A stretch of 64,000 bases of DNA from contig NZ_CP114905.1 of the NCBI RefSeq assembly GCF_027497195.1, positions 682,001 through 746,000 of the forward strand, written 5' to 3'. Shown here piece by piece: positions 46,269 to 64,000 of the stretch; the first letter of the stretch is position 1; each line of letters opens with the position of its first letter. This stretch comes from Streptomyces sp. WMMC500. Lineage in GTDB: Bacteria > Actinomycetota > Actinomycetes > Streptomycetales > Streptomycetaceae. The translations under genes were made by a program, and so were the position numbers. Below the pieces are notes generated by a model, which saw only the letters and a program-made list of their open reading frames with translations, made no database searches and had not been told where the DNA came from.

Positions 46269-47999
46269 CTACAGCGCGGTCTCCCGTACGAACCGCAGCC
46301 GCAGCCGCGCGTAGACGGCGTCGTCCCCGGACAGCTCCGGATCGTCGTGCGGCCAGAGCCGGCGCGGCGTGCCGCCGGCGGCGCGGCAGGCCGCGGGGAG
46401 CGTGACGACGGCGCCGTCGCCGGCCGCGAACCGGCGCTCGGCGTCGTCCACCGCCGCGGTCACCGCCGCGCCGCGCAGCCCGGCGGCGCGCAGCCGGGCC
46501 ACGGTGGCGGCGCGCGTCTCGACGGTGCCCTTCCAGCCGCCGTCGAGGAGCGCGGCGAGGCCGGCGAGCGGGCGGGGTTCGAGGCGTTCGCAGGCGAGGA
46601 CGGTGAGGGTGGAGTCGCCGGCGACCTCGCTGAGGTGCTCGCCGAGCCAGCGGACCGGCAGGTCGCGGGTGGGCGGGACCGGCTCGGCGGCGGGATGCTC
46701 GGGGCAGGGCAGGACCCTGAGCCGGACGTCGGGCAGTTCCGCCGGCGCCGTGCCCAGCAGGAGCCGTGCCTCACGGCGCGCCATCCGCTCCAGGACGGCG
46801 CGCGGGTCCGTGGCGGACGCGGTGCCGGGAGCGGCGCGGTCGCGGTCCGCCGTCTCGTCCGCGGCGGGCGGGCTCTCGTACGGGCCCGGCAGACCCGCGC
46901 GCGCCGCCCGGCCCGCGGCCACGGCGCGCGCCGCCCACACTGCCGCCTCCGCGCACCCCTCCTCGCCGAGGGCCGCCAGGTCGTCGGGGCGCAGCCCCGC
47001 GGTGATCCAGCTCCGCAGCGCCGCCGCGCGGGCGTCCTCGCGTACGCGCCGGTGCTCGGCCCGCGCGTCCCCGCCGTCCGGGGTGAGCGCACCGAGCAGG
47101 TAGCCCGCGGCCCAGATCTCGCCGGCCGGCTCCCCGGGCAGCACCCGCGGTGCGGGCCCGGCGGCGCGGGCGGCGGCGGCGACGGTCTCGTGCGCCACGC
47201 CGAGCAGCGCCGACCAGGGCCGCCACGGCCAGGTGAACGGCTGCTCCGCCGGCTCCTGTGCGCCGCTGCGCCGGATCCGCACGTGGCAGCGGGACGCGAC
47301 GAGTTCGACGGCGTAGCCGAGGCCGCCGTGGCGGGCCGGGTCCGCCAGCTCCGGGCCCGCCCAGTGGTCGGTGCCGACGGGCCCGGCCGCGCGGGCGACG
47401 GCGAGCCGGACGCCGTGGTGGTCGTTGCCCGCGACGGAGGGCCCGACGCCGTGGTCGAGCACGTGCGGCACCGGCGCCACGACGGGGATGCCCCGCTCGG
47501 CGCAGAACACGGCGATGTGCTCGTCGTCGTCGCGGGTGTCGTCGGGGAACCCGGCGAGGTACGCCGCGAGTTCGCGGGCGGTGTCCGCCGGCAGCGCCAG
47601 GGCCAGCGACGGCACCCACTCCCACGGCGCGAGCCGCACCGCGGCATAGCCGCCCACGGCCGCCTGCCGCACCCGGTAGGAGTTGTACGGCGACACCCAC
47701 AGCACGCTCAGCGACACGGCCCGGTCCGGGTGGCGTTCGAGGAGCGCGGTGACGTGTCCGGCGAAGCCGGGGATGAGGTGGGCGTCGTCCTGCACCACGA
47801 GGTGGTGGGTGGCGCCGGGCGCGATCGCGGCCCACGCGACCTTCGCGGTGCGCAGCGGGCTCGGGACGCCGCCGGGCTCCGGGTCCCGGACGATACGGGC
47901 GGGCAGCGGCGCGCACTCGCCGGCGACCCGCTCGGCGCCGGCGAGGCGCGAGGGGTGGCACATGACGACGGTGCTGAGCCGGACGGGCGGTCGCGTCAT
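46269..47999 (-). CDS. GT-A/GT25-like protein, unknown role in the biosynthetic cluster
   Basis: 576 residues from the ATG at 47999, overlapping the condensation-domain gene by ATGA. The N-terminal 250 residues look like a small GT-A-type transferase: LSTVVMCHPSRLAGAERVAG, then THHLVVQDDAHLIPGFAGHV with a QDD motif where GT25-type enzymes have ED/DD, followed by LSVLWVSPYNSYRV. The C-terminal half is helical and charged without a recognised domain. It is the last gene of the minus-strand cluster. It could add a sugar or other activated group to the product, but that rests on the weak QDD similarity. Confidence 0.5.
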   Translation of the reverse strand: MTRPPVRLSTVVMCHPSRLAGAERVAGECAPLPARIVRDPEPGGVPSPLRTAKVAWAAIAPGATHHLVVQDDAHLIPGFAGHVTALLERHPDRAVSLSVLWVSPYNSYRVRQAAVGGYAAVRLAPWEWVPSLALALPADTARELAAYLAGFPDDTRDDDEHIAVFCAERGIPVVAPVPHVLDHGVGPSVAGNDHHGVRLAVARAAGPVGTDHWAGPELADPARHGGLGYAVELVASRCHVRIRRSGAQEPAEQPFTWPWRPWSALLGVAHETVAAAARAAGPAPRVLPGEPAGEIWAAGYLLGALTPDGGDARAEHRRVREDARAAALRSWITAGLRPDDLAALGEEGCAEAAVWAARAVAAGRAARAGLPGPYESPPAADETADRDRAAPGTASATDPRAVLERMARREARLLLGTAPAELPDVRLRVLPCPEHPAAEPVPPTRDLPVRWLGEHLSEVAGDSTLTVLACERLEPRPLAGLAALLDGGWKGTVETRAATVARLRAAGLRGAAVTAAVDDAERRFAAGDGAVVTLPAACRAAGGTPRRLWPHDDPELSGDDAVYARLRLRFVRETAL

Positions 48000-49465
48000 G
48001 CGAGCGCCGCCCGGCTCCGGCCCGCGGCACCCGCGCCCCGGGCATCCCCGACGGTGTCCTCGGCCGCCGGCGCCGCCGCTGCCGCCTCTGCCGCGTCGAC
48101 GATCAGCGCCTCGAACCCGGTCAGCATCGCCTCCGCGGCCGGCTCGTCGATCAGGCCGGTGTCCACGGTCAGCGACACCGGCATGAAGTGCCGGCTGCTG
48201 TACACGTGCCAGGCCACCGACGTCTCCGACTGCCGGCCGAGGGTCTGCCACTCGATGACCGACGACTCGGGCCGCACGCCCTCGTGTTCGCGCCGGTCCA
48301 CAGAGCGCGCCTCGGTGATCATGTCGCGCAGATCGTTGTACCAGCAGGTCCGGTCCACGGGCCGGCCGCGCCGCTCGTCCAGCCCGCGCAGGTCGTCCAG
48401 GAGCGCCGACTTGTCGTAGTACGCGTGGTAGTACGTCTTCATCGCCGCCTGCGCCGCGCGCCGGGCCAGCGCCTCGAACGCCCCGGGTCCGGCGTCGGGT
48501 CCGAGTGCCGCGTCGAGGGTGAACAGGCCCTCCAGCGTCACCGTGCTCACCGCCTCGCGCAGCGCGGGCTGGAACCGGTTGCTCACCATCACCTGGAAAA
48601 CGGCGCGGTCGTGCCGCGACTGCCGGGCCACCACCGCCGAGGCGGCGGCGAGCAGGATCGCCGAGGAACTGATCCGCCAGCGCTCGTCGAGCGTCCGCAG
48701 CGCCCCCGGCAGGCTCGGCGAGGCGAGCACCGCCTGCCGGAACCGGGGACGCGCGCCCGGCCGGCGCGTGAACAGCCGCTCGGGGGCGTCGCGCAGGGAC
48801 TCCACCCAGTGCCGCCGGGCCGCCGCGTCGCGCTTGCGACCCTTCTCCGACGTCTGGAACCCGGCCTCCGCGAGCGGCTGGTGGCCGCGGCTCGCGGCGC
48901 GCAGCGCCGCCGGGTCGGCGCCGCGCAGCAGTTCGGTGAGCGCGCGGTGCAGCAGGGTCAGGCCCATCGCGTCGGTGGCGACGTGCGCGAGGACGAGGAC
49001 CGCGCACACCACCTCGCCGTCGACGCGTACGAGCGCGGCGCGTACCGGCCACTCGCGGTCGTACGCGAACCGCACGGCGCGCCACCGGCGTTCGACGGCA
49101 TCCGCGAGCCCGGTGGCCGCCGCGGCGTCCGCGGCGTCGAAGACGTGCACGTCGAACGTGCCGTCGCCGTCGAGCTCCTGGTGCATCGCGCCGTCGCCGC
49201 CCACGTGGACCCGGGTGCGCAGCGCGTCGTACACGGTGAGCAGGCCGCGTACGGCCTCGACCGCGCGGGCGGTGGGGACGGCGGGGGCGACGGGCACCAC
49301 CACCTTGACGTTGGTGCCGTGGTCGTCGGGTTCGGTGTCGAGCATCGCCCGCCGGATGGCCCACTGGCCCCAGGTCACGGGCCCCCGGCCCGCGGGTGCT
49401 CCGGTGATGCCGACGCGGGCGGTGTGGGCGGTGCGGCCCGCCACCTCGCTCAGTTCCGTACGCAC
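47996..49465 (-). CDS. Stand-alone condensation-domain protein
   Basis: 489 residues (GTG start at 49465, GGAGGGA upstream), one domain only. The NRPS condensation-fold pattern runs from PVTWGQWAIRRAMLD to the core VCAVLVLAHVATDAMGLTLL. The canonical HHxxxDG reads AHVATDA, so the catalytic second His and the Asp are kept, but the first His and the Gly are both Ala. No adenylation or carrier domain is fused. Free-standing C domains can form amide or ester bonds between a carrier-bound acyl group and a free amine or alcohol, which would suit release of the chain from the ACPs encoded upstream. Confidence 0.78.
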   Translation of the reverse strand: MRTELSEVAGRTAHTARVGITGAPAGRGPVTWGQWAIRRAMLDTEPDDHGTNVKVVVPVAPAVPTARAVEAVRGLLTVYDALRTRVHVGGDGAMHQELDGDGTFDVHVFDAADAAAATGLADAVERRWRAVRFAYDREWPVRAALVRVDGEVVCAVLVLAHVATDAMGLTLLHRALTELLRGADPAALRAASRGHQPLAEAGFQTSEKGRKRDAAARRHWVESLRDAPERLFTRRPGARPRFRQAVLASPSLPGALRTLDERWRISSSAILLAAASAVVARQSRHDRAVFQVMVSNRFQPALREAVSTVTLEGLFTLDAALGPDAGPGAFEALARRAAQAAMKTYYHAYYDKSALLDDLRGLDERRGRPVDRTCWYNDLRDMITEARSVDRREHEGVRPESSVIEWQTLGRQSETSVAWHVYSSRHFMPVSLTVDTGLIDEPAAEAMLTGFEALIVDAAEAAAAAPAAEDTVGDARGAGAAGRSRAALA

Positions 49466-50181
49466 AGGTCCCTCCAGTCACAACTGCGGTAGTCGATGCG
49501 GCCGGTGGGGCGGCCGGTGGTGGCGACCGCGGCGGCGTACCCGGGTCCCACCGCGAGATCGGCGACGGCGTACCCGGTGCCGCCCGGCCGGCGGGACCCG
49601 CCGTCCGGTGCCGGGGCGGCGCCGACGTCGTGGCGCAGGAAGTCCAGCAGCCGCCCGCCGACGGCCTTGGCCCGCGCCTCCTTGCGGGCCAGCAGCAAGC
49701 ACAGCCGGCGCACACGGGCCCGGCCCGGGGGCAGCGCGGCGAGCTGCGTCGCCTCGGCGGGCGCGAAGAACCGCCGGGCCAGCGCCAGCGGGTCGCCGTG
49801 TGGGTGTTCCGCCTGCAGATCGACGCCGACGGGCGCGGCGCCGCCGACGGCGACGAGCGCGCGCAGCCCCGAGCGCGACAGGTTCCACTCGCAGCCGCGG
49901 CCCGCACCCGTCAGTGCCGGCTTGCCGTACGGCCCCGGGGTCCACCCGATCCGCTCCGGGGGCAGCCCCAGGTGCTCGGCGAGCAGCCGCCGGGCGGCGG
50001 CGTGCGAGCGGAGCAGCGCCGTGCGGCGTACGGGGTCGGCGAGCCGCGCGGCCCGGGCCCGTTCGGCGTCGGTGAGCAGCCCCGTGGCGGGGCCCGCCGC
50101 ACCGGCGTCGCCGGACAGGTCGACGTCCCAGACCCGCACGGCACCGCCGCCGGCCGCGCCCCCGGCTGCCTTCCCGGACAC
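49450..50181 (-). CDS. 4'-phosphopantetheinyl transferase (Sfp type)
   Basis: 243 residues (GTG start at 50181, directly after the MATE gene stop). Signature residues: WNLSRSGLRALVAVG, GVDLQAEHPHGDPLAL (Mg-binding Asp) and LLLARKEARAKAVGG (the KEAxxK motif). It activates carrier proteins by adding the phosphopantetheine arm from CoA, here presumably the ACPs of this cluster. Its end overlaps the condensation-domain gene by 16 bases. The C-terminal 35 residues extend beyond the usual core. Confidence 0.87.
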   Translation of the reverse strand: MSGKAAGGAAGGGAVRVWDVDLSGDAGAAGPATGLLTDAERARAARLADPVRRTALLRSHAAARRLLAEHLGLPPERIGWTPGPYGKPALTGAGRGCEWNLSRSGLRALVAVGGAAPVGVDLQAEHPHGDPLALARRFFAPAEATQLAALPPGRARVRRLCLLLARKEARAKAVGGRLLDFLRHDVGAAPAPDGGSRRPGGTGYAVADLAVGPGYAAAVATTGRPTGRIDYRSCDWRDLCVRN

Positions 50182-51540
50182 CTAGGCCGCCTCCGCGGCG
50201 CGGCCGAACCGGTGCCAGGCCGTGGCCAGCAGCAGCCCGCCGATGACGACGTTGCCGGCGGCCAGGGCGACGAAGTACGCCTCCGCGTCGTCCACGGCAC
50301 GCGCGACGAGCCCGCCGCCGACGTTGACGGCGCCGAGGTAGACGACGTCGGAGGCGATGGTGATGTGCCCGTTGCGCACCTGCTGCAGGCTCATCGTCAC
50401 CATGTTGAGCAGCCCGAACGCCAGCCAGCTCGGCGCGACGACGGTCAGGTAGTCGTCGGTGAACGCGGCGGTGCCCCCGTCGTCGCTCATCAGCCTGCCG
50501 AGCGGCCCGGCCAGCGCGAAGCCGGCCACGGCCAGGACCGCGTACACCGCCAGCACGTACCGCACGCCCTCGCGCAGCACGGGCCGCAGCAGGTGGCCCT
50601 CGCCGGCGCCGAGGGACTGGTTCATGGTGATGGCCACGGCCGAGCCGAGCGCGATCGCGGGCGACAGCGACAGCACCTGGATGGCGTGCGCGCCGCCGTA
50701 GCCGGCGACGGCGTCCGGGCCGAAGTCGGAGAGCACCCACAGCGACGTGTAGTTCATGCCGGCGATGAAGAGGTACGAGACGGCCACCGGCACCCCGACG
50801 GTGACCAGGATCCCCACCGTCTGCCTCAGCGGCTCCGCCGCCCCGCCGAAGCGCAGCAGCCCGGTGCGCGCCAGCAGGACCAGCCCGGACGCGAGGCCGA
50901 CCACCGAGGCGCCTGCGATGGACGCGGGCACGGCGAAGACGCCCATGCCGGCGTGGAAGCCGAGGAGCCACACCCCGAGCACCTGCATCAGGGCGACGGC
51001 GATGGTGATCACGGACGCCGACCGCGCGCTGCCCCAGCCCCGCAGGGTGCCCGCGACCACCGAGGTGAGCACGGCCAGCAGGAAGGACGCGGCCACCAGC
51101 CGGGCGAAGAGCACGAAGTCGTCGTGCGAGGCGGCGTCCACGTCCAGCGTCCGCGCCATCTGCGGCGCGGCCAGCGCGATGACCGCCGCCGCGACGGCGA
51201 AGCAGCCGAGGGCGATGGCGCCGATGCGTACCAGCGGCGGCTGCGAGTCGTCGCCCTCGTCGGCCCCGCGGCGGCGGGCGGACACGACCTGGCTGCTGAT
51301 CTCGATGCCCTCCTCCAGCGCCAGAAAGAAGAAGGAGACGGGGATGAAGAGGGCCCGGATGTACAGCGCGTCGCCGCCCATGTTGCCCAGCAGCGCCGAG
51401 ATGGCGAACTGGGCGCCGAGGCCGGTGACGACGCCGAGGCAGATCGGCACGGCCAGCCCGCGCAGCCGGCCGCGCAGGTCGGGGGGCGGGGCGGGGGCGG
51501 CGTCCGGGGCCGGGTCGCCGTGCTCCTTGACGTCAGTCAT
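50182..51540 (-). CDS. MATE-family exporter
   Basis: 452 residues with about 12 membrane helices arranged as two similar halves (LAVPICLGVVTGLGAQFAIS; later LVTVGVPVAVSYLFIAGMNY). Conserved features include ALEEGIEISSQVVSARRRGA, where acidic residues fit a MATE cation site, and SLQQVRNGHITIASDVVYLG. It is in the middle of the minus-strand biosynthetic run, overlapping the acyl-CoA dehydrogenase gene by 8 bases. It probably exports the cluster product and may give self-protection. Confidence 0.83.
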   Translation of the reverse strand: MTDVKEHGDPAPDAAPAPPPDLRGRLRGLAVPICLGVVTGLGAQFAISALLGNMGGDALYIRALFIPVSFFFLALEEGIEISSQVVSARRRGADEGDDSQPPLVRIGAIALGCFAVAAAVIALAAPQMARTLDVDAASHDDFVLFARLVAASFLLAVLTSVVAGTLRGWGSARSASVITIAVALMQVLGVWLLGFHAGMGVFAVPASIAGASVVGLASGLVLLARTGLLRFGGAAEPLRQTVGILVTVGVPVAVSYLFIAGMNYTSLWVLSDFGPDAVAGYGGAHAIQVLSLSPAIALGSAVAITMNQSLGAGEGHLLRPVLREGVRYVLAVYAVLAVAGFALAGPLGRLMSDDGGTAAFTDDYLTVVAPSWLAFGLLNMVTMSLQQVRNGHITIASDVVYLGAVNVGGGLVARAVDDAEAYFVALAAGNVVIGGLLLATAWHRFGRAAEAA

Positions 51541-52741
51541 CGAGGATCCTGCCTTTCCGGTGGCCCAGGGCGAGGTTGAGCCGCTGCATGGTGCCGGTGC
51601 CCTCCATGAACTCGAAGGCCCTGGCGTCGCGGTGCAGCTTGTCGAGCAGCGGGTGCTCCAGCCGGGCGCCGGGCCCGAAGAGCCGGAGGGCGTACTCGGC
51701 GGTCTCCAGAGCCAGTTCCGCGGCCCGGTACTTGGCGGCCGAGGCGACCGTGCCGTCGCCGGGGTCGCGGTCGGCCTGTTCGGCGGCGGCCAGCACCAGC
51801 CGCCGGGTGCCGGCCAGCCGGCGCCGCAGGCCCTCCATCGCGGACGACTCGTCGGCGCGCAGCGCGCGGCGGTTCACGGCCGCGTAGTCCCAGGCGGCCT
51901 GGGCGATGCCGAGGGCCATGGCGGCGACGACGGGGCGGGCGCGGTTGAAGGTCCGCATCGCGCCGACGATGCCGCGGCGGGTGGCGGACAGGTGCATGCC
52001 GAGGATGTCGGAGCGGGCCACGGGCACGCCGTCGAGGCGGACTTCGGCGAGCCCGATGGCGCGCATGCCGGTGGTCGGCAGGGCGGTGGCCGTGAAGCCG
52101 GGCCGGGTGGGCTCGACCAGCACGGCGACGACCCCGACGGGTCCCGGCTTGATGCGGGCGAAGACGACGCCCAGGTCGGCGCGGACGGCGTTGCCGATGT
52201 ACTTCTTGACGCCGCTGAGCCGGTACGGACCGGGGGCGCCGGCCTCGGTCCCGGCTTCGGTGAGCGCGGTGGTCAGCGCGGTGGCGTCGGAGCCGGCGTG
52301 CGGCTCGGTGAGCGCGAAGAACGTCCACGTGGGGCGGGCGGCCAGGGTGGCGTAGTAACGCTCCTTCTGGTCGTCGTCGCCCAGTTCCTCCGTGAGCACG
52401 CCGGAGAGGGAGGGGCCGGGTGCGGCGACCATCAGCGCGGCGTCGCCCCAGGCCAGACGCTCGTACACGACGACGCGCTCGACGCAGGAGTGCAGGTGGC
52501 AGGGGCGGCCGTCGACGATCAGCGGGTCGGGGTTGTACGCGGGCGGCAGGCCCAGGAGGACGGGGAAGTAGGCGTCGTGGACGACGGGGTTGAGGGTCCT
52601 GGGGTCGGCGCCGGGCTCGTCCATGGCCAGTGCGGTGGCGCGGAAGGCGTGCGCGTACTCCTCCACGGCGGCACGCAGGCGCGTGAGGTCCGGGGGCGTG
52701 CGGGTGGGCGTGGCCGGCCCGCGGGTCGGTGTGGTGGTCAT
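51533..52741 (-). CDS. Acyl-CoA dehydrogenase-family flavoprotein
   Basis: 402 residues from the ATG at 52741. Domains follow the family: N-terminal helices, a beta domain with FFALTEPHAGSDATALTTAL, YRLSGVKKYIGNAVRADLGV, and a helical C-terminal domain ending RDARAFEFMEGTGTMQRLNL, which keeps the EGT motif next to the FAD. The start overlaps the small partner gene by ATGA. Beside an ACP and PUFA-like synthase it may desaturate or oxidise an ACP- or CoA-bound chain. Confidence 0.83.
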   Translation of the reverse strand: MTTTPTRGPATPTRTPPDLTRLRAAVEEYAHAFRATALAMDEPGADPRTLNPVVHDAYFPVLLGLPPAYNPDPLIVDGRPCHLHSCVERVVVYERLAWGDAALMVAAPGPSLSGVLTEELGDDDQKERYYATLAARPTWTFFALTEPHAGSDATALTTALTEAGTEAGAPGPYRLSGVKKYIGNAVRADLGVVFARIKPGPVGVVAVLVEPTRPGFTATALPTTGMRAIGLAEVRLDGVPVARSDILGMHLSATRRGIVGAMRTFNRARPVVAAMALGIAQAAWDYAAVNRRALRADESSAMEGLRRRLAGTRRLVLAAAEQADRDPGDGTVASAAKYRAAELALETAEYALRLFGPGARLEHPLLDKLHRDARAFEFMEGTGTMQRLNLALGHRKGRILDD

Positions 52742-53448
52742 GGCCTCACCTCGGTGGCGTACTGCCCGCTCGCCGGCTCCGCGGGGACGGGATGGACGTC
52801 GGCCAGCAGGTCGACGGCACGGGCGAGCCGGCCGGGGCCCGCGTCGAGATAGCCGGCGGCGCCCAGCAGCCGCAGCACCGCGCGCAGCGCCCGGACGAGC
52901 GCGTCGGCAGCGCGGGGTGCGGCGAGCGCGGCGGAGCCGGGTCCGCCGCCGGCCGCGCCGTGTTCGAGCAGCAGCCGGGCCTCCAGCAGGTCCGCGGCGG
53001 CTTCGCCGTGCATGGTGCGTACGGACGAGATGTCGGCCAGTACCTCGCCGCCCACCCGGCGGCCCGCCAGGTGGTCGGCGGCGGTGCGCAGCAGGTGCTC
53101 CGTGAGGCCCAGCCGGATCCACAGCACACCCGTGGTCCAGGGGCCGGTGGTCCCGTCGCGGTGGCGTTCGTCGCGCCACACCCCGAGGTCGCCGCCGGCG
53201 AACTCCAGGGTGGCCACCGGTGCGCCGCCCGGTGCCTCGGCGGCGGCCAGCGGCAGCAGGGCGTGCCCGCCGGGGCCCCAGGCGCGGGCGTCGGGGCCGA
53301 GTCCCGCGCGGAGTTCGGCGAGCGCGGGGGCGGGGCCTTCGGCTTTGGCGCGGGCACGGCAGCGCAGCCCGAGCGCGGTGTCGAGCACCGGGTCGGCGAC
53401 CGGGGCGGCCGGTTCCGGTGCGGGATGCGGGAGGGGTAGTGCGGTCAC
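52738..53448 (-). CDS. Small acyl-CoA dehydrogenase-like partner
   Basis: 236 residues (GTG start at 53448). The N-terminal 100 residues are Ala-rich with beta character and lack the TEPxAGSD motif; residues 110-236 resemble the helical C-terminal domain (TGVLWIRLGLTEHLLRTAAD, VLADISSVRTMHGEAAADLL). It has no EGT/EGx catalytic segment, so it is unlikely to be active alone. It is coupled on both sides (ATGA to the larger dehydrogenase; 4-base overlap with the KS-like gene), suggesting a heteromeric flavoenzyme. Confidence 0.7.
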   Translation of the reverse strand: MTALPLPHPAPEPAAPVADPVLDTALGLRCRARAKAEGPAPALAELRAGLGPDARAWGPGGHALLPLAAAEAPGGAPVATLEFAGGDLGVWRDERHRDGTTGPWTTGVLWIRLGLTEHLLRTAADHLAGRRVGGEVLADISSVRTMHGEAAADLLEARLLLEHGAAGGGPGSAALAAPRAADALVRALRAVLRLLGAAGYLDAGPGRLARAVDLLADVHPVPAEPASGQYATEVRP

Positions 53449-54299: not shown

Positions 54300-54302
54300 C
54301 GC

Positions 54303-54584
54303 CTAGCCCGCCGCGCCGGTGCCGGCGGACACCCGGATGAACGCGCACACCGCGCCGACCGTCTCCAGGTGCTCGGGCTCCAGGGTCTCGGGGTCGATCT
54401 CGATGCCGTGGTCGTCCTCCAGCGTCATGAGGAGTTCGAGGACGCTGGTGGAGTCCAGGCCCAGTTCCTCGAAGAGCTTCGTCTGCGCGGTGGCCTCGCC
54501 GAGGTCCTTGCGCAGCACGGCTTCCAGCGACTTGATGACCTTGGACTCAAGGTCGGACCCGGCCTCGTCGACGTGCGTGGTCAT
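54303..54584 (-). CDS. Acyl carrier protein (BtrI-like position)
   Basis: 93 residues. The carrier motif is LGLDSTSVLELLMTLED, with phosphopantetheine Ser45; after DS comes Thr rather than the common Leu/Ile. The rest is an acidic four-helix ACP with a flexible GAAG tail. It is the first of ACP - KAS-like - dehydrogenases downstream and follows the PLP decarboxylase and ATP-grasp genes, the same trio as butirosin BtrI/BtrK/BtrJ. The amino acid is probably loaded on this protein. Confidence 0.85.
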   Translation of the reverse strand: MTTHVDEAGSDLESKVIKSLEAVLRKDLGEATAQTKLFEELGLDSTSVLELLMTLEDDHGIEIDPETLEPEHLETVGAVCAFIRVSAGTGAAG

Positions 54585-55917: not shown

Positions 55918-57311
55918 CGTACGTCTCCGAACTCGGTGAGGCGCGCGGCCACTTCGGCGTCCAGGGCGTCCGCTTCCGCCTGGCCGGGGGCGACGAGCAG
56001 GAAGTAGAAGCGGCCGTCCGCCGGGGCCGCCGGGGCTGCCGGAGCCCGTTCCGGGCCGGCGAAGGCGGCGCCCGCGGTCGCGTGGTTGTCGGGGAGTGCG
56101 CCGCGGCCGGCGGCGCGGTCGAACAGGAGCCCGCCGAGGGCTTCGGCGAGCCGGTCGAACGGGACGGGGGCGGGCAGCCGCACGTCGTACTGCCGGGCGA
56201 CGACGACCGCGCCGGCCGGGACGCACTGCTCCTGGAGCCGGGTCTGGTAGGTGGACATGTTGTTGCGGGCGTTGATCTCCAGTACGGGCAGCAGCGTGCC
56301 GTCGGTCCGCACCAGGGCGTCGACGCCCACGGGCCCGTGGTAGCCGTCGGCGGCCAGCCGCCGGCCGAGGAGCCGCGCGGTGTCCGCCACGACGGCGTGC
56401 TGTGCGGGGGTGAGCCGGGCCGGGAAGCGGTGGCCTTTGTGGACGCCGCCCGCGGTCAGCGCCTCCTTGACGAAGTCGAAGCGCACGGATCCGTCGCGGC
56501 CCACGGTGAGGTGGTAGTTGAGGTCCGCGGCCTTGTCGGCCCAGACCTCCACGACCACGGCGAGCCGGTCGTCCCCGGTGCGTTCCGCGCGCCGGCGCAC
56601 CATCCGCACCACCTGCTCCAGCCGGCGCACCCGGTCGGCGACGACGATGCCCTTGCCGGAGACGCCGTAGGCGTCCTTGACCCCGACGACGGCGCCGTCC
56701 GCGATCCGGGCCGCGGCCTTCTCCGCGACGGCCTCGAACTCCGCGACCGACTCGCACTCCCAGCCCTCGGCGAGCGGCACGCCCAGCTCGGCGGTGACGC
56801 GGCGGCTGTAGATCTTGCTGTTGACCCGCTTGGCGAGCGTCGCGGCCGGCAGCGCCGACGCCAGCCCCGTGCGCCGGCACAGCTCCTCCTCGGCCGCGGA
56901 CATCCCGTGCGGCAGGAGCCGGGGGGTGCCGAGCTCGCGCAGCCGCGCGAGCAGGCCGGGCGACTCCAGCGCCTCCTCCGTGACGGGGACGCCGGGCCGG
57001 CAGCGGTCGGTGACCTGCACGTGCGGCAGGCCGAGGCCGAGGCCGCGCAGGTAGTCGAGGTAGCCGGGGTCGGGTGCGGACTTGAGGATCACGTGGTCGG
57101 CCGCGTCGCCGAGCAGCAGCGCGAACTCGTCCATGCGCGCGACGACCGGGGAGAGCGCGTTGTCCCCGACGGCCGGTACCCCGGGCTCGCCGCGCGCCCA
57201 GTCGCGTTCCACCTCGATGTTGCCGAGCAGAACGAGCGGTGCGGCCGGGTCGCCGGTGCAGGCGCGCCGGACGCCGCTCATGAAGTCGTCGGCCGGCGGG
57301 TTGCCGGTCAT
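55914..57311 (-). CDS. ATP-grasp ligase, BtrJ-like
   Basis: 465 residues from the ATG at 57311 (GAAGGGGGA five bases upstream). A pre-ATP-grasp part (LVLLGNIEVERDWARGE) is followed by the ATP-grasp core, VGVKDAYGVSGKGIVVADRV and VVVEVWADKAADLNYHLTVG, then LLPVLEINARNNMSTYQTRL with metal-ligand E and N, and a C-terminal YFLLVAPGQAEADALDAEVA tail as in PGM1-type ligases. BtrJ uses ATP to attach glutamate to the BtrI ACP. The adjacent ACP and BtrK-like genes make the same reaction likely. The amino acid cannot be fixed from sequence. Confidence 0.78.
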   Translation of the reverse strand: MTGNPPADDFMSGVRRACTGDPAAPLVLLGNIEVERDWARGEPGVPAVGDNALSPVVARMDEFALLLGDAADHVILKSAPDPGYLDYLRGLGLGLPHVQVTDRCRPGVPVTEEALESPGLLARLRELGTPRLLPHGMSAAEEELCRRTGLASALPAATLAKRVNSKIYSRRVTAELGVPLAEGWECESVAEFEAVAEKAAARIADGAVVGVKDAYGVSGKGIVVADRVRRLEQVVRMVRRRAERTGDDRLAVVVEVWADKAADLNYHLTVGRDGSVRFDFVKEALTAGGVHKGHRFPARLTPAQHAVVADTARLLGRRLAADGYHGPVGVDALVRTDGTLLPVLEINARNNMSTYQTRLQEQCVPAGAVVVARQYDVRLPAPVPFDRLAEALGGLLFDRAAGRGALPDNHATAGAAFAGPERAPAAPAAPADGRFYFLLVAPGQAEADALDAEVAARLTEFGDVR

Positions 57312-57321
57312 GTCGTCCCCC

Positions 57322-57352
57322 TTCTCCTGGCGTTCTCCTGGCGTTCTCCTGG
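57322..57352. repeat. Tandem 11-bp repeat carrying three Shine-Dalgarno-like sites
   Basis: TTCTCCTGGCG at 57322-57332 and 57333-57343, with a partial copy to 57352. On the minus strand this reads CCAGGAGAACG repeated, so three AGGAG sites precede the ATP-grasp start. The nearest is about 14 bases upstream, and a separate GAAGGGGGA is closer. Confidence 0.75.
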
Positions 57353-57382
57353 AGCCGTGCGGTCTGTCGCGTGCGCCCGCCG

Positions 57383-58312
57383 TCAGTGGCGGAACACCGC
57401 GGCCGCGAAGGTGGCGCCGAGCCCCACCGCGGCCATCAGGTAGCAGTCGCCCTTGCGCAGCCGGCCGGCGTCGCGCAGGGTCACGTAGTTGATGAAGGAG
57501 TCGGCGCCGAAGCAGTGCCCGAGCGAGGCGACGTTGTCCAGGCAGACGCGCGAGCGCGGGAACTCCAGCAGTTGCGCGGCCTTCGCCCAGGAGATGCGGT
57601 TGACGTTGTGCGGGAGGATCCACGCCAGGTCCTCCGGGGAGATTCCGGCCGCGGCCACCGCCTCGCGGATCACGGTCGTCAGCCGCTCCGCGTAGCGGCG
57701 CTCGAACTCCTCGCCGCGCGGCGGCGGGAGCTTCACGTCGTGGTACTCGCCGAACGTGCGGGTGACGTAGCTGCGCAGCACGTCCCCGCCGCCCCCGGCG
57801 GACACCAGGCAGGCGGCCGACGACTCACCCATCACGGTGGTGCCGGGGATGAGCTGGGCGGTGGGCCAGTCGGCCTTCTCCCCCGCGACGACGAGCGCCA
57901 GCGCGCCGGGGTCGCCGTCCTCGGCGAGGAGCCGCCCGGCGAGGTCGACGGCGGCGAGCCCGGAGGCGCACGCCTGCTGGGTGACGGTGAACACGGCGGC
58001 GTGCCCGAGGCCGAGTTCGTCGGCCGCGTCGTGCACCGGGTTCCGGGAGGCGCGGGAGCCGATGGGGATGGTGCGGGCGCTGACGACGTACGACACGCGG
58101 TGCTCGTTGCCCCGCAGCGCGGTGAGCCCGCGGCCGGCGGCCACGGTCATCTCGCGCAGTCCGGCGCCGGGCGACATGCGGACGTCGCGGAGGCCGAAGT
58201 AGCGGTGGAAGAGCGCGAGGTCGCGGTCGCCGACGCCGAGGCGGGGGGCGAGGTCGGCGATGGGCACCGACACGGGCGCGACGTGGGCGGCGACGTCGTA
58301 CAGGGCCGTCAT
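57383..58312 (-). CDS. KASIII-like condensing enzyme
   Basis: 309 residues. The nucleophile loop is VTQQACASGLAAVDLA with Cys115, and PHNVNRISW supplies His235. The third catalytic position, Asn in the GNxSAA motif of FabH, reads LGHCFGADSF, so Asn is replaced by His. With Cys and His kept it may still condense or transfer acyl groups. The start overlaps the large synthase stop by ATGA. It could join the ACP-bound amino-acyl starter to malonyl-ACP or move a chain between the synthase and the small ACP. Confidence 0.82.
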   Translation of the reverse strand: MTALYDVAAHVAPVSVPIADLAPRLGVGDRDLALFHRYFGLRDVRMSPGAGLREMTVAAGRGLTALRGNEHRVSYVVSARTIPIGSRASRNPVHDAADELGLGHAAVFTVTQQACASGLAAVDLAGRLLAEDGDPGALALVVAGEKADWPTAQLIPGTTVMGESSAACLVSAGGGGDVLRSYVTRTFGEYHDVKLPPPRGEEFERRYAERLTTVIREAVAAAGISPEDLAWILPHNVNRISWAKAAQLLEFPRSRVCLDNVASLGHCFGADSFINYVTLRDAGRLRKGDCYLMAAVGLGATFAAAVFRH

Positions 58313-61300
58313 CGGGCACTCCTTCCGGCTGCGGTACGGGACGGGGGCGGCGGGCCGTCAGCCGCCGCGGGGGCCGGTCGGCCGGAGAGCCGTGCCGTGG
58401 CACGCTTGTCGCGGGTCCTGAGCCCGGTGAACGCGAACAGCACCCGGCCGCCGTCGCCGACCGCCTCGCAGCGGGCCACCGTGCCGTCGCCCGCGGTCCG
58501 GTGGCGCAGGTCCACCGGCGCGGGGGCCTCGGCGAGCGCGGCGTCGTTGCCCGGGGCGTAGAGGTCGAACCGGTCGATGCGGACGGGCACGGGAACCGGC
58601 GCGTCGGCGGCGTCCGCGGAGGCGGCGGTCGCCCGCAGCAGGCTGTCCATGGCCAGCGCGGGCAGGAGGAAGTCCCGGAGCGGCCCGAGGTGTTCTGGCG
58701 GCGGCAGGTGCAGTCGGGCCGAGCCCCCGGCGGCGCCGGTACGGAGCTCGCGGAGCGAGTCGAACATGCCGCGGAGCCGCACCGGGGAGCCGGCGTCCGC
58801 GTAGGCGTCGCGAGCGGGGACGAGCGGGTCCCCGCCCGGCTCAGGGTCGGGGCCCGGGGCGTACGCGCCGTCGAGCAGGACCGTCATCCGGCTGTACTCC
58901 TGCGCCGGAATGGGGCCGCGCGGCGGGGCGGCGAGGACCACCTCGACGCGGCCGGGCCGCTCCGCCCGCGCGGTGACCAGCAGCCGGCGCGGCCAGTGCT
59001 CCTCCGCCGCGCGCACGAACCGCGCGAACACGGCGTCCGTGACCGCCACCGGGCGCCCGCCCCCGACCGCGGCGGCGGCCTCGGCGGCGATCTCCATGAG
59101 GAACGTCCCGGGCAGCGTGGGCCGTTCGTCGACGCGGTGGTCGCGCACGTACGGGTGGTCGTCCAGACCGAGCCGTACCTCCCAGGCCGTGCCGCCGCCT
59201 TCTGCGGGCGCGCCGGCACCGCGGACGAACGCGCCGGCGGGGTCGGGTGGCCGGGCGCCGGCGGCGCGCAGCTCCGGCGCGGCGGCGGCGAGCATGCGCC
59301 ACTCGGTCTCGCCGAGCCACACGGAGGTGAGCGGGTCGCGGCGGCGGTGCAGCAGTTCGGTGCGGAACCAGCGGCGGCCGAGGGCGTCGTCGAGGTGGGT
59401 GAAGTTGTCCTCGCGGGCGAGGTAGGCGTCCTGGACCTGGGTGTGCGTCACCATCCCGGTCTCGGTCCACAGCCCCGAGACCGGGGCGTGCACGTCGGCC
59501 TGCGCGGTGGCGCGGGCGTGGGCCGCGGCGTGGGTGAGGAACTCGTTGGCGGAGATGTAGTCGGCCTCGCCGGGGCGGGCCACGACGGTGGTGACCGAGC
59601 TGATCGCCAGCCACAGCGCGGGGTCGTGGGCGGCGAACGCGGCGCGGAGGTGGAGCCAGCCGCGTACCTTCACGTCCCGTACGGACCGGAACTCGGCGGG
59701 CGTCTTGCGGCGCAGCGCGGTGGCCCGCTCGACGCCGGCGCCGTGCACGACGACGTCGGCGCCGCCGGCCGCGGCGATCTCCGCGGCCACCGCCCGCAGC
59801 GCGCCGGGGTCGAGGACGTCGCACTGCCGGTAGTGCACGCGGTCGGCGCCGTGGCGGGCGGCGAGCCGCCTCAGGGTACGGGCCCGCTCGGCGGCCTGGA
59901 GTGCGCGGTTGTGGCGCCGGTTCAGCTCGGCGAGCTTGGCGCCGGGGTGCTCGGCCATCAGCCGGCGCAGCGCCGCCGGCCGGTCGGCGGGGAGGTCGCC
60001 CGCGTCCGCGGGTCCGGGGGCGGGCCCGGAACCGAGCAGCCAGATCGCGGCGGGTCTGGACAGCCCGGCGAGCTGGTCGACCAGCTCGGCGGTGATGCCC
60101 CGCCCGCCCCCGGTGGCGACGACGACGGGCGCGCGCGGCAGCCCGCCCGCCGGAAGGAGGCCGTCCGCCGGAAGGAGGCCGCCCGCCGGAGGGAGGCCGC
60201 CCGCCGGAGGGAGGCCCTCCGCCGGAGGGAGGCCCTCCGCGGGGGCGAGCACGGCTTCGGCGCGGACGCCCCGCCGGTAGTGGGCGACGGCGAGGTGCCG
60301 TTCGACGGCGGACTCCCGGCCCAGCGGTTCGAGCCCGCCCGCGAGGTCGTCGGCGTCGGCCACGACCGCGTAGACGAGCGCGCCGGGCAGATCGGCGGCC
60401 AGCGCCCGGACGAGCCCGGTGAAGAGCCCGGTGGCGGGGTCGGGCGCCGGGTCGCCGGAGTCGAGGACGAGCACGGCGAAGGACCCGCGGGCGTCGAGGT
60501 CGTCGGCGAGGAGGTGCGCGGCGGCGAACGCCAGCTCCTGCAGTTCCAGGGCCGCGGTGGGCAGGTCGTCCCCGGCCGGGCGGCGCCTCGTGTCGAAGAG
60601 GACGCGCACGTGGCGGAGTCCGCGCTCCGCCAGGACGGCGGCCAGGTCCTCCGGGGCGTCAAGTACGCGCACGTCCCCCGCCGGCTCCGGGTGCGCCGCC
60701 CGCGGGACCGCCACGACGCAGCCCGGCGGCGTGAGACCGGCCGCCCCTTCCGGGTCGTTCGTCAGCACCAGGGTGTCCGGCGGCAGCGCGGGCAGCGGGG
60801 TGCGTACCCCGGGGCGGTCCAGCCGCTTCAGGCGCAGCACGTGCGGGCGCAGTTCGCCGAGCCGGTCCGGTGCCGCGGGCGGCTCGGGCACGTAGGTCAG
60901 CGCGGGCGTGCCGGGCTCCGCGGGGGCCAGGTCCGCCGCCGCGTCGTCCGCGCGGACGGCGCGGTGCAGCGCCACGAGCCCCTCGGCGGCGTGGTGGTAC
61001 GGCCGCGCCCCGGCCGGGTCCGCGGCGGTGCCGGCACGTGCGCGGCGGCCCGCCACCGGCGGCTCGGCCACCCGCAACTCCCCCAGGATCTTCAGGCCCC
61101 GTGCCCGGGCCTCCGCCCGGCGCATCAGGACCGCCGCTGCCGCCGCCTCCGTCGCGACGCCGCCCGGCGGCGGCGTCACCAGTTCCGCCGCCGCGGTCAC
61201 GCCGATCACGACCGCCGCGTCCAGTTCCCGTGCCGCGAGGCGGCGGCAGGCCGCCGCCAGGGCCGCGTGGGAGGAGTCCGGGCCGGCGTCGAGGGTCATG

Positions 61301-63273
61301 TTCGGGCCGTGCAGGTCGAGGAGCTGGGCCACCCGGGACGCGATGATGTTCGGCATCAGCCCGGGCAGGGAGTCGCTGTTGCTCTCGGGCGCCAGCGCCC
61401 GTACGCCCGCCGCCAGCGCGGACACGTCCGCCTCCGCACGCGCCGCGATGTCGTCCAGGTACGCGCGCAGCGTGCACGCCATCGCCTGCCGCACCTGGCC
61501 GCTGTGCCCGACGAACACCCCCGTGCGCGCCAGGAGTCCGGCGTCCGGTTCGCCCCACCCCGCGCGCAGCGCCAGCGCGCAGCGCAGCGCCATGAGCTGG
61601 CTGCGGTCCAGCCGCTCCAGCACCGCCGGCGGCAGCCGCACCTCCAGCGGCGCCGGCGTCGGGAACGACGTGCCGAAGACCGGGCCGGCCTCCGGTGCCA
61701 GCAGGGTCGTCGCGACGACGACGACCGGCTCCGGGGCTGCGGGCGCCGGTGCGGCCGGTCCCGGGCGGTCGCTGACGATCAGGTGCGCGTTGGTGCCGCC
61801 GAAGCCCATCGCGGAGACCCCCGCGGTACGGGCCCGGCCGTCCGGCGACGGGTGCCACGGCAGGGTCCGTACGGGCACGGCGGCCGGGCCCGCGACCGGT
61901 TCGGTGTAGAGGTGCTGCGCGGGGATCGCCTCGTGGCGCAGCGCGAGCAGCGCGTGGATGACGTTGACCGCGCCCGCCGCCCAACCGGTGTGCCCGATCA
62001 GCGACTTGTTCGACGTCAGCGTCCACCGCCTGCCGGGCGCCGCGGCGGCCAGCGCCTCCAGCTCCGCCCGGTCGCCGGCGGCGGTGCCGGTCGCGTGGGC
62101 GACGACCCAGTCGACGTCCTCCGGGCCGACGCCGGCCGCGGCCCAGGCCCGTTCGAGGGCGATCCGCTGACCCGCCGGGTTCGGTGCGTAGACCGCCTTG
62201 CCGCGCCCGTCGGACGAGCCGCCGAAGCCGCGGACGAAGCCGAGGACCGGATCGCCGTCCGCCAGGGCGCGCCCGTACGTCTTGAGCGCCACGACCGCGG
62301 CGCCGTCCGCGAACAGCACGCCGTCCGCGCCGCGGTCCAGCGAGCGCACGCGGTCGCCCCGGGCCAGCCCGTCCAGCTTGGCGAACAGCACCATGGTCTG
62401 GGCGTTGACGCTGTACGTGCCGCCGCACAGGGCGAGGTCCGCGCGGCCTTCACGCAGGGCGCGCATGCCGAAGTCGAAGCTGTAGAGGGAGGAGGAGCAG
62501 GCGGTGTCGACGACGACGGTCTCCACGGGGTCGGCGAGCCCGGCCAGCGCCTCACGCACGACGCGGTACGGCGCGGTGTCGGCGAGGTCGGGCGAGCCGG
62601 CCGGGTAGAGCGCGGCCAGCGGGTCCGCGTCACCGGCTTCCGGTCCGGCCAGCAGCCGGGCGCCGTGGCGGAGCAGGCTGTGCTCGGCGGCGTGGCCGCC
62701 GTCCGCGGTCATGCCGACCGCGGCGAAGGTGCGCGTACCGGCGTCGAGCCGGACGCCGTCGAGCGCCTGCAGCACGCTGTGCCGCAGCCACCGGCCGCTC
62801 GGCTCGCGCTGCGGGGCGCGGCCGGCGGCGAGTTCGGCGCCCAGCCGGGGGTGGGGGCGCAGGTCGTGGAGGAAGCCGGAGGTGCGGGTGTACGTCTTGT
62901 CCGGTGCGGCCGGGTCCGCGGACCAGAGGGCGTCGATGTCCATCCGGTCCCCGGGCTCGCTGAACTGCGGGACGCGGTCGCGCAGCAGGTGCCACAGCTC
63001 GTCGGGCGAGCCGGCGCCCGGCACGGCCAGGCCCATGCCGACGGCGACGATCGCGCCGGGGTCGGCGTCCGCGGGGCGGCCGTCGCCGGGGCCGCCGTCG
63101 GCTGGTGCCGGCGCGAGGGACGGCAGCGAACCCGCGGTGCGTACGGCGGCGTCCAGGCCCCGCGCGCGCAGGGCCGCGACGGCGGCCTCGGCGGCGGCGC
63201 GGTCGGCGGCGCCGGCCTCGACGCGGTAGCGGAGCGGGCGGATGCCACCACCGCCCCCGGTGCCGTCAGCCAT
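58309..63273 (-). CDS. PUFA-synthase-like polyketide synthase (KS, KS-like, KR, DH)
   Basis: 1654 residues from the ATG at 63273. Domains: a short N-terminal region; KS at about 75-500 with nucleophile in VVDTACSSSLYSF (near 256), VAHATGTAAGD (near 393), and NKSLIGHTGWAAG (near 428); a second KS-like domain about 510-860 whose nucleophile loop reads LDAGPDSSHAALA, with no Cys, as in chain-length-factor partners; a KR at about 1050-1290 with ATGGGRGITAEL, Ser in ISSVTTV, and Tyr in ADYISANEFL; and a hot-dog DH-like domain at about 1360-1640 with HPYVRDHRVDERPTLPG, in which the usual Gly is Glu. No AT or ACP is included; the upstream gene supplies an ACP. It resembles PfaA/PfaC/HglE-type iterative lipid synthases split over proteins. 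Confidence 0.82.
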   Translation of the reverse strand: MADGTGGGGGIRPLRYRVEAGAADRAAAEAAVAALRARGLDAAVRTAGSLPSLAPAPADGGPGDGRPADADPGAIVAVGMGLAVPGAGSPDELWHLLRDRVPQFSEPGDRMDIDALWSADPAAPDKTYTRTSGFLHDLRPHPRLGAELAAGRAPQREPSGRWLRHSVLQALDGVRLDAGTRTFAAVGMTADGGHAAEHSLLRHGARLLAGPEAGDADPLAALYPAGSPDLADTAPYRVVREALAGLADPVETVVVDTACSSSLYSFDFGMRALREGRADLALCGGTYSVNAQTMVLFAKLDGLARGDRVRSLDRGADGVLFADGAAVVALKTYGRALADGDPVLGFVRGFGGSSDGRGKAVYAPNPAGQRIALERAWAAAGVGPEDVDWVVAHATGTAAGDRAELEALAAAAPGRRWTLTSNKSLIGHTGWAAGAVNVIHALLALRHEAIPAQHLYTEPVAGPAAVPVRTLPWHPSPDGRARTAGVSAMGFGGTNAHLIVSDRPGPAAPAPAAPEPVVVVATTLLAPEAGPVFGTSFPTPAPLEVRLPPAVLERLDRSQLMALRCALALRAGWGEPDAGLLARTGVFVGHSGQVRQAMACTLRAYLDDIAARAEADVSALAAGVRALAPESNSDSLPGLMPNIIASRVAQLLDLHGPNMTLDAGPDSSHAALAAACRRLAARELDAAVVIGVTAAAELVTPPPGGVATEAAAAAVLMRRAEARARGLKILGELRVAEPPVAGRRARAGTAADPAGARPYHHAAEGLVALHRAVRADDAAADLAPAEPGTPALTYVPEPPAAPDRLGELRPHVLRLKRLDRPGVRTPLPALPPDTLVLTNDPEGAAGLTPPGCVVAVPRAAHPEPAGDVRVLDAPEDLAAVLAERGLRHVRVLFDTRRRPAGDDLPTAALELQELAFAAAHLLADDLDARGSFAVLVLDSGDPAPDPATGLFTGLVRALAADLPGALVYAVVADADDLAGGLEPLGRESAVERHLAVAHYRRGVRAEAVLAPAEGLPPAEGLPPAGGLPPAGGLLPADGLLPAGGLPRAPVVVATGGGRGITAELVDQLAGLSRPAAIWLLGSGPAPGPADAGDLPADRPAALRRLMAEHPGAKLAELNRRHNRALQAAERARTLRRLAARHGADRVHYRQCDVLDPGALRAVAAEIAAAGGADVVVHGAGVERATALRRKTPAEFRSVRDVKVRGWLHLRAAFAAHDPALWLAISSVTTVVARPGEADYISANEFLTHAAAHARATAQADVHAPVSGLWTETGMVTHTQVQDAYLAREDNFTHLDDALGRRWFRTELLHRRRDPLTSVWLGETEWRMLAAAAPELRAAGARPPDPAGAFVRGAGAPAEGGGTAWEVRLGLDDHPYVRDHRVDERPTLPGTFLMEIAAEAAAAVGGGRPVAVTDAVFARFVRAAEEHWPRRLLVTARAERPGRVEVVLAAPPRGPIPAQEYSRMTVLLDGAYAPGPDPEPGGDPLVPARDAYADAGSPVRLRGMFDSLRELRTGAAGGSARLHLPPPEHLGPLRDFLLPALAMDSLLRATAASADAADAPVPVPVRIDRFDLYAPGNDAALAEAPAPVDLRHRTAGDGTVARCEAVGDGGRVLFAFTGLRTRDKRATARLSGRPAPAAADGPPPPSRTAAGRSAR
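60143..60240. repeat. 18-bp minisatellite inside the synthase gene
   Basis: About 5.4 copies of an 18-bp unit coding for PAGGLP/PAEGLP-type hexapeptides, in the linker between the KS-like and KR domains. The copies differ by single bases (CGTCCGCC, CGCCCGCC, CCTCCGCC). Confidence 0.75.
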
Positions 63274-64000
63274 CGGCCCGTACGCCGGTGCCGGCGGCGG
63301 TGGTGCGGCCGGTCTCGTCGATGAGCCGGGCGAGGCCGCCGAGGGTGGACTGGAGGGCGAAGCGGGTGTCGTCGGCGACGTGGTGCAGGCCGAAGCGGTC
63401 GATGAGGGTGCTGAGCACCTCCATGCGCTTGAGGGAGTCGATGCCGAGGTCGCCTTCGAGGTCGGCGTCGGGGTCCATGGCCTCGACGGGGTAGCCGAGG
63501 CGGTCGGCGTAGACCTGCTGGAGGGTGCCAAGCACGTCACCGCCTGCGGCGGGCCCGGCGGGTGCGGCGGGCGCGGCCGCCAGAGGGTCCGGCGCCACGG
63601 GGGGCGTTGCAGGTACGGGAGTGGGGGCGGGGGTCGCCACCGGCATCGACGGGCCGTGCACGGCCCGCGCCGCACGCGCCGGGCCCGGCGCCGCACCGGC
63701 GGCGTCCGGCACGGCGGTCGCCGCAGGCATCGCCGACGCCGCAGGCACCGCCGACGCGGGAGCGGGGGCGGGGGTCGCCACCGGCATCGGCGCGCCGGGC
63801 GCGGCGGGCGCCGCAGGCGCCGGGCCCGCCGCCGCACCGGCGTCCGAAGCGGCCGGCACCGCAGGCACCGCGGTCGCCGCCGATGCCGGAGCGAGGGCGG
63901 GGGTCGCCACCGGCATCGGCGCGCCGGGCACGGCCCGCGCCGCAGGCGCCGGGCCCGCCGCCGCGCCGGAGTCCGGCACGGCCGGTCCGGCGGGCGCCGC
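63266..64000 (-). CDS. ACP-containing synthase subunit (N-terminus outside window)
   Basis: 245 C-terminal residues are visible; the frame is open to the right edge. The ACP lies near the C-terminus with DADLEGDLGIDSLKRMEVLS (phosphopantetheine Ser in GIDSLKR), very like the ACPs of PUFA synthases. It is preceded by about 140 residues of Ala/Pro/Thr linker in which PGAPMPVATPA-type segments repeat about every 43-47 residues. The start of the next gene overlaps this stop by 8 bases. The missing part probably carries KS and/or malonyl transferase domains. Confidence 0.78.
   Translation of the reverse strand, partial: AAPAGPAVPDSGAAAGPAPAARAVPGAPMPVATPALAPASAATAVPAVPAASDAGAAAGPAPAAPAAPGAPMPVATPAPAPASAVPAASAMPAATAVPDAAGAAPGPARAARAVHGPSMPVATPAPTPVPATPPVAPDPLAAAPAAPAGPAAGGDVLGTLQQVYADRLGYPVEAMDPDADLEGDLGIDSLKRMEVLSTLIDRFGLHHVADDTRFALQSTLGGLARLIDETGRTTAAGTGVRADG

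Follow-up and report, generated by a model that had tools for sequence, protein, structure and literature searches.

In butirosin biosynthesis, BtrI, BtrJ and BtrK act as acyl carrier protein (ACP), ATP-dependent ligase and decarboxylase, respectively. An ACP, an ATP-dependent ligase and a BtrK-like decarboxylase are likewise grouped in Streptomyces sp. WMMC500 (genome of 8.6 Mb), in a stretch of 64,000 nucleotides of contig NZ_CP114905.1 (G000:C1; positions 682001-746000), which we refer to here as the window and whose numbering is used throughout unless a contig is named. In contrast to butirosin, this set is coupled to a beta-ketoacyl-ACP synthase III (KASIII)-like enzyme, a further KAS-like protein and acyl-CoA dehydrogenase (ACAD)-like proteins, and the resulting seven-gene cassette shares its operon with an iterative polyketide synthase (PKS). 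We propose that the operon product is an N-polyenoyl dehydro-beta-alanyl (Dba) enamide, a reading to which we assign a probability of roughly two in three. Gene content, gene order, family kinship, active-site residues and cassette conservation are taken from sequence.

Related chemistry is known from several pathways, which are summarized here as far as the accessible portions of the respective reports describe them. In enamidonin and olenamidonin, the Dba-bearing backbone has four residues, one of them D-diaminopropionate (D-Dpr), and OleH/AutS, a 3-oxoacyl-ACP synthase, has been proposed to couple the acyl-CoA with the carrier-bound unit (PMC11204786). The enamidonin/autucedine/olenamidonin pathways (aut, ole) resemble our system in that their Dba residue is N-acylated by a lipid chain and in that a relative of the window cassette is accompanied by diaminopropionate genes and a four-module nonribosomal peptide synthetase (NRPS). 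The window cluster itself, however, lacks NRPS modules and diaminopropionate genes, and has its own iterative PKS, a free condensation (C) domain, a MATE exporter and a glycosyltransferase (GT)-like gene. For the bolagladins of Burkholderia gladioli (bol), loading of Asp on BolC has been proposed to proceed via the VinN-like BolO, decarboxylation via the BtrK-like BolN, N-acylation via KASIII homologues and desaturation via the dehydrogenase BolQ; deletion of BolN abolished production, which beta-alanine did not restore, and deletion of BolQ yielded dihydro compounds (PMC7756342). These two deletions argue for a beta-alanyl unit that derives from Asp and is then desaturated. The bol set has a BtrK-like decarboxylase, a free ACP, two KASIII homologues and an ACAD proposed for Dba formation, but differs from the window set in using a VinN-type adenylation enzyme instead of an ATP-grasp protein, in the Ser/Thr that replaces Cys in its KASIII homologues BolM and BolP, in a fatty acid that is primed with citrate and would be supplied by the primary fatty acid synthase, and in its NRPS tetrapeptide. 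For AFC-BC11 of the Burkholderia cepacia complex (afc), loading of Asp and decarboxylation on the carrier have been demonstrated in vitro, the amine is acylated by a fatty acyl-AMP ligase, and the KASIII-like AfcL (Cys/His/Asp) transfers beta-alanyl peptides to Lys-S-CoA (PMC12186527). A KASIII-like enzyme can therefore form an amide in such a pathway, but with the beta-alanyl chain as the donor. While afc thus shares Asp loading, on-carrier decarboxylation, an amide-forming KASIII-like enzyme and the absence of a classical NRPS, it differs in the iterative assembly of (beta-Ala)3, in acyl transfer by the ligase and in lacking a C domain, and no PKS is named in the accessible part of that report. 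Solanimycin was rejected as a counterpart, its residues being given in the accessible text as dehydro-alpha-alanine, and so was kinship with the cispentacin pathway (AmcB scored 36.3 bits where the cut-off is 80, and AmcF 120.4 where it is 325).

The operon genes in the window all lie on the minus strand, in a run from 46269 upward that crosses the window end and whose genes overlap or are closely packed (inter-gene spacing of -16 to +89 bases). The initial annotation had placed the ATP-grasp, decarboxylase and ACP genes in a single coupled operon with the other genes named here, and all of these were present as listed; Pfam supports the KASIII-like enzyme, the protein with ketosynthase (KS), KS-like, KR and DH domains, the free C domain, the 4'-phosphopantetheinyl transferase (PPTase) and the MATE exporter. 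Between 46269 and 65014, only the KAS-like gene and the GT-like gene were without a Pfam match. In the proposed pathway, steps 2 to 5 are inferred from other pathways, and steps 1 and 6 from domains only. The iterative PKS (KS, KS-like, KR and DH; 1654 amino acids [aa]; 58309..63273; Pfam) and the acyltransferase (AT)-ACP protein (63266..64000, its C-terminal part inside the window, with the whole gene extending to 65014; PF00698 and one PF00550 stretch) would iteratively make an unsaturated acyl chain (step 1). The PreATP-grasp/ATP-grasp protein (55914..57311; PF18604), a putative amino acid:ACP ligase, would put an amino acid, most likely L-Asp, via its side-chain carboxyl on the small ACP (54303..54584; PF00550), the proposed amino-acid carrier (step 2), and the BtrK-like pyridoxal phosphate (PLP)-dependent decarboxylase (54646..55917), whose best solved relative is BtrK, would strip the alpha-carboxyl to give beta-alanyl-ACP (step 3). 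The KASIII-like enzyme (57383..58312; PF08541), as proposed N-acyltransferase, and its proposed KAS-like partner (53445..54299; assigned by profile and model) would hold the chain on Cys and transfer it to the beta-alanyl nitrogen (step 4). ACAD1 (402 aa; 51533..52741; PF02770 and PF00441) and ACAD2, an ACAD C-terminal-domain protein and its proposed partner (52738..53448; PF00441, 27.7 bits), would introduce the double bond of the Dba thioester, an enamide (step 5), although the order of steps 4 and 5 may be reversed. The free-standing C domain (47996..49465; PF00668, 61 bits) would transfer the Dba unit to an amine or to a hydroxyl group, which may belong to a sugar-linked acceptor since the cluster contains GT-like and HAD sugar-phosphatase-like genes, and the predicted MATE exporter (50182..51540; PF01554) would export the product (step 6).

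To define the cassette beyond the window, genome contigs were scanned with a profile of 26 aligned ATP-grasps, and the best 80 of 131 relatives are referred to here as the 80 loci; a cassette was counted as complete when all seven genes were found, including an ACAD of 330-420 aa on the same strand within 9 kb. The set of KASIII, ATP-grasp, decarboxylase, ACP, KAS-like and two ACAD-like genes was complete in 53 of the 80 loci, a recurrence that exceeds chance. Besides the ATP-grasp, present in all 80, the decarboxylase was found in 71, KASIII in 70, the ACP in 67, the KAS-like gene in 66 and the small ACAD2-type gene in 58 loci; several of the 27 incomplete loci were cut by contig ends. Neighbour searches covered up to 21 kb around the loci, and neighbour families were named from one or two members each. 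A stand-alone AMP-binding enzyme with an ACP lay beside the complete cassette in 16 of 53 loci (nine of these with two long ACADs), methylaspartate mutase E in 6, a type II KS pair in 4 and a PKS resembling synthases of polyunsaturated fatty acids (PUFA) in 3, and 24 of the 53 had none of these four within that range. Since very different acyl suppliers stand beside one cassette, the acyl source is therefore exchangeable. Both diaminopropionate genes were found beside the cassette in seven complete loci. At one of the loci, from Streptomyces sp. CG 926 (G062/L092), the cassette lies between an SbnB-like and an SbnA-type diaminopropionate gene (the latter at 352.5 bits, above the cut-off of 349.95). 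Two NRPS proteins come next, one of 2683 and one of 2704 aa, with the motif orders C-A-T-E-C-A-T and C-A-T-C-A-T-TE. These four modules, together with the diaminopropionate genes, suit the Dba-bearing enamidonin/olenamidonin backbone with its four residues and one D-Dpr. At another locus (L089), both diaminopropionate genes pass the SbnA and SbnB cut-offs. Nine Amycolatopsis loci (L091, L096, L099, L104, L107, L108, L119, L121 and L124) hold the ATP-grasp only, between type II KS pairs and diaminopropionate genes, with no decarboxylase, KASIII or small dehydrogenases within up to 21 kb, and their ATP-grasps form one group with 100/100 support.

Several further observations were made among these loci. 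In most of the loci L065, L067-L071 and L073-L076, the cassette is preceded by methylaspartate mutase, class II tRNA-synthetase-like and glutamate-synthase/FMN-type genes (families named on L071), which suggests a methyl-branched variant of the amino-acid unit. Lentzea aerocolonigenes (L129) and Micromonospora sp. ATCC 39149 (L131) carry closely related rearranged cassettes with a MATE gene inside, possibly reflecting transfer between families. The locus labelled Sphaerisporangium cinnabarinum ATCC 31213 (L079) falls inside Cellulosimicrobium, both in the ATP-grasp tree and by shared flanking families, and the assembly is possibly mislabelled.

The decarboxylase had been annotated as BtrK-like, and its sequence supports this. 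Among solved chains BtrK is nearest, at 311.8 bits compared to 170 for the best diaminopimelate (DAP) decarboxylase. The motif reads GPLCTPNDTLGK in the window protein, whereas BtrK has GPLCTPEDCLGK and a DAP decarboxylase GPICETGDFL; it is of the BtrK-like form GPLCTPxD, with Cys347-Thr348-Pro349 present in 71/71 rows, the window protein among them and one member of deviating length excluded. The genome has a separate LysA at G000:C1:2721344-2722594 (469 bits), whereas the window decarboxylase reaches 288.5 bits, below the cut-off of 297.9. By sequence, the enzyme is kin to BtrK and appears not to belong to the lysine pathway, a statement of kinship only. The ACP keeps Asp44-Ser45 in 68/68 rows. 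No AMP-binding enzyme was detected in the operon by the Pfam scan, and the PreATP-grasp protein stands in place of a VinN-type Asp loader; by profile, its nearest solved relatives are PGM1 and an L-propargylglycine--L-glutamate ligase. We consider Asp the most likely substrate, although it may be Glu or another amino acid. In a route of the butirosin type, the ATP-grasp would load glutamate to give 4-aminobutyryl-ACP, which would be N-acylated and desaturated to a 4-aminocrotonyl unit. This is in keeping with the structure entry of BtrK, titled L-glutamyl-[BtrI acyl-carrier protein] decarboxylase, and with the lack of a methylaspartate mutase in the window genome, and Asp and Glu are not distinguishable here from sequence alone. 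However, Asp is the amino acid used in the known counterparts in which a decarboxylase of this type goes together with Dba, and the BtrK-like motif is just as conserved in loci with enamidonin-type neighbours (71/71 rows), so that we regard the glutamate route as unlikely. Methylaspartate was rejected as a substrate, as the window genome has no MutE although sister loci do.

In the KASIII-like enzyme, Cys115, His235 and His266 were found in 69/69 rows (window included; three members below 250 aa left out). In solved KASIII chains, the position of His266 is occupied by the Asn of the G-N motif, the third residue of the catalytic triad. As judged from the alignment, the invariant Cys/His/His of the cassette KASIII is a new feature; it is another variant of the active-site set, next to Cys/His/Asp in AfcL and Ser/Thr instead of Cys in BolM/BolP. 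The KAS-like protein is predicted to have a KASIII fold: its profile matches KASIII chains (best E value 1.3e-6), and its structural model, with a predicted local distance difference test (pLDDT) score of 84, matches OleA, ChlB3, DpsC and FabH (E values of about 1e-8; TM-scores low, at about 0.35-0.52). It had been described as Cys-less, which holds for the nucleophile loop (residues 109-123 in the window protein contain no Cys, and Cys occurs at the displayed positions in at most 8/63 rows) but not for the whole protein, which does contain Cys residues. Similarly, the dehydrogenase described as split is encoded by two genes, but these are a 402-aa ACAD and a separate C-terminal-domain protein. 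Glu380 of the EGT motif in ACAD1 is kept in 59/60 aligned rows of 340-430 aa.

Pfa synthases combine KS and KS-like domains, KR, DH, AT and a PUFA-type ACP motif. The window proteins share this make-up, including a KS followed by a chain-length-factor-like KS (two ketoacyl-synt stretches); they differ in having one ACP, in contrast to the tandem ACPs of Pfa synthases, and no enoyl reductase, PfaD type included, was found among the cluster proteins scanned with Pfam. The first KS of the PKS reads DTACSSS and the second DAGPDSS, lacking the active-site Cys. With 244 bits against a cut-off of 1010, the PKS is far from the PfaA model, and it is also far under the PKS_plus_SDR cut-off. What had been annotated as a PUFA-type ACP does carry that motif, but it is the end of the AT-ACP protein with its single PF00550 stretch and not a free ACP. 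Given the one ACP and no enoyl reductase found, a conjugated polyene would be the simplest product. Among the best 120 of 1436 PKS relatives, 13 show 61-86% identity, some over part of their length only, and the remainder at most 51% (from Streptomyces, Kitasatospora and further actinobacteria, as well as Burkholderia and a few others); relatives with the same domain make-up exist among these 120. The spread of the PKS-Dba pairing was judged from the ATP-grasp loci and the best PKS relatives. ATP-grasp relatives at E 1e-30 occurred in 34 of 391 genomes sampled from the order, window genome included. When the surroundings of 17 of the 35 ATP-grasp matches outside the window genome were inspected, some of them overlapping the 80 loci, a PUFA-like PKS was seen only in genome G360.

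A number of points weigh against an Asp-derived Dba product. In the ATP-grasp tree of 81 rows, the sequences of the window and L062-L064 fall together (100/100), nested in a larger group of 24 rows (100/100) that also holds the methylaspartate-mutase and Cellulosimicrobium loci. The nearest ATP-grasp neighbours of the window carry methylaspartate mutase, the 23 other loci of the group have no diaminopropionate genes in the DNA examined (up to 21 kb), and all loci with such genes fall in the remaining 57 rows. Since the group of the window ATP-grasp holds no diaminopropionate locus, the amino acid may differ from Asp, which is the main cause for caution. The described pathways also differ: bolagladin and AFC-BC11 load Asp with a VinN-type adenylation enzyme and not an ATP-grasp, AFC-BC11 is N-acylated by a fatty acyl-AMP ligase, which the window lacks, and AfcL moves the beta-alanyl chain to an amine and does not acylate the beta-alanyl nitrogen. 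Furthermore, the SbnB-like gene of the CG 926 locus reaches 185.3 bits, below the cut-off of 326.9, the loci compared include none with a proven Dba product, the aut genes lying outside the comparison, and the identity of the acceptor, like the function of the GT-like protein, is a guess.

The initial annotation had suggested release by amide or ester formation, and the free C domain bears this out as a possibility. His161 is kept in 11/12 and Asp165 in 12/12 aligned rows of this family (four fragments left out), and in the HHxxxDG motif of the window C domain the first His and the Gly are both replaced by Ala. The GT-like protein, a GT-A-like glycosyltransferase candidate of 576 aa (46269..47999), consists of a conserved N-terminal part of about 370 aa and a low-confidence C-terminal part. 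It has no Pfam or NCBIfam match, but matches a PHROG glucosyltransferase (E 8.6e-10), and Asp71-Asp72 are invariant in 12 aligned rows; its model (mean pLDDT 67) gives weak glycosyltransferase matches (best Foldseek E 5.6e-5) with low TM-scores. The HAD gene lies past the window end (65104-65697), and its protein comes closest to a sugar phosphatase model, with 142.8 bits against a cut-off of 282. This HAD family was present in 10 of 15 loci carrying the GT-like gene, a Gfo/Idh/MocA-type gene in five (L086, L100, L103, L111 and L133), an aminotransferase family in L100, L103 and L111, a polysaccharide-deacetylase family in L086 and L133, and a PIG-L deacetylase in L062. Because HAD, Gfo/Idh/MocA, aminotransferase and deacetylase genes accompany the GT-like gene, these neighbours suggest that the acceptor may be a sugar amine. 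The more detailed scheme, to be taken only tentatively and as doubtful in its entirety, is an NRPS-free route to a polyenoyl-enamide glycolipid, in which the PKS would feed the ATP-grasp-type Dba cassette, the Cys/His/His KASIII and its inactive KASIII-fold partner would be the amide synthase, and the free C domain would move the Dba unit from its thioester onto an amino sugar or another sugar-bound acceptor produced with the GT-like and HAD genes.

We take the cluster to extend from 46269 to 67566, the lower border being based on Streptomyces smaragdinus RB5 (L062) alone. The operon contains a PPTase (49450..50181; PF01648), and past the window end follow, after the HAD gene, a gene on the plus strand (66274-66726), the L063 homologue of which belongs to the af470-like monooxygenase family, and a second PPTase (66754-67566; Pfam). 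In S. smaragdinus, whose ATP-grasp is 76% identical to that of the window, the order is as in the window genome: PPTase, af470-like, HAD, AT-ACP, PKS, cassette, MATE, PPTase, C domain and GT-like gene, after which comes the PIG-L deacetylase gene. The cluster from HAD to GT-like gene was found again in S. smaragdinus, Streptomyces aculeolatus, CNH099 and G360. The borders follow from the S. smaragdinus gene order and from the separate contig on which DUF6271 and PhyH lie there. The ABC/monooxygenase genes below 46.1 kb were excluded on the basis of this single locus, which has a different gene after the GT-like gene; in G360 they still adjoin the cluster. The co-oriented genes at 37378-46093, presumably encoding an IclR-like regulator, 3-hydroxyacyl-CoA-dehydrogenase-like and FAD-monooxygenase-like proteins and an ABC importer, look catabolic and separate, as judged from their translations.

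Just past the window, at G000:C1:749628-754899 (L009:13628-18899), PhyH, DUF6271, a second PLP decarboxylase, GNAT and MFS genes form one run. That the pathway also uses the first four of these upstream genes, for example to provide an amine acceptor, would agree with their arrangement, since the window genome, G360, CNH099 and S. aculeolatus all have them beside the cluster and oriented like it, but appears quite improbable: S. smaragdinus has the whole PKS-Dba cluster on a contig of 97,961 bases and DUF6271 with PhyH on another (C34; 75,938 bases), and Actinoplanes palleronii carries its cassette on one contig and DUF6271, the decarboxylase and GNAT on another. The DUF6271/PhyH neighbours thus look separate from the cluster. 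DUF6271-decarboxylase-GNAT in A. palleronii and DUF6271-PhyH in S. smaragdinus, both away from the Dba cassette, represent an uncharacterised conserved unit.

The initial annotation had favoured a different role for the KASIII, namely that the aminoacyl-ACP primes the PUFA-like synthase through it to yield an amino-terminated unsaturated chain; while the KASIII and amino-acid genes do directly adjoin the PKS in a single run and aminoacyl starters of the VinN/VinO type are known from the accessible literature (PMC7756342), this is very unlikely, as 50 of 53 complete cassettes have no PUFA-like PKS within up to 21 kb and the cassette recurs beside unrelated acyl suppliers, in one relative diaminopropionate genes and a four-module NRPS lie next to it, the ordinary KASIII Asn is His in 69/69 rows, the dehydrogenase pair has no evident priming role, and in the Dba pathways described or proposed it is the nitrogen of the unit on the carrier that receives the fatty chain.

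We thus return to the N-polyenoyl Dba enamide. The statement that no characterised pathway has this gene set held for the whole set within the literature searched, but not for the core module, which has known counterparts: it is most likely a Dba/enamide cassette of known kind, in an ATP-grasp-loader form. New is the variant in which a dedicated iterative PKS feeds the cassette and a free C domain is present without NRPS modules; we found no description of this PKS-fed, NRPS-free form in the open-access literature searched. Two questions follow from it: can an ATP-grasp stand in for the VinN-type loader, and does a KASIII in which His takes the place of Asn form an amide bond? The cassette ties a conserved actinobacterial gene set to enamide chemistry known from few lipopeptides, and may serve as a marker for finding such compounds.

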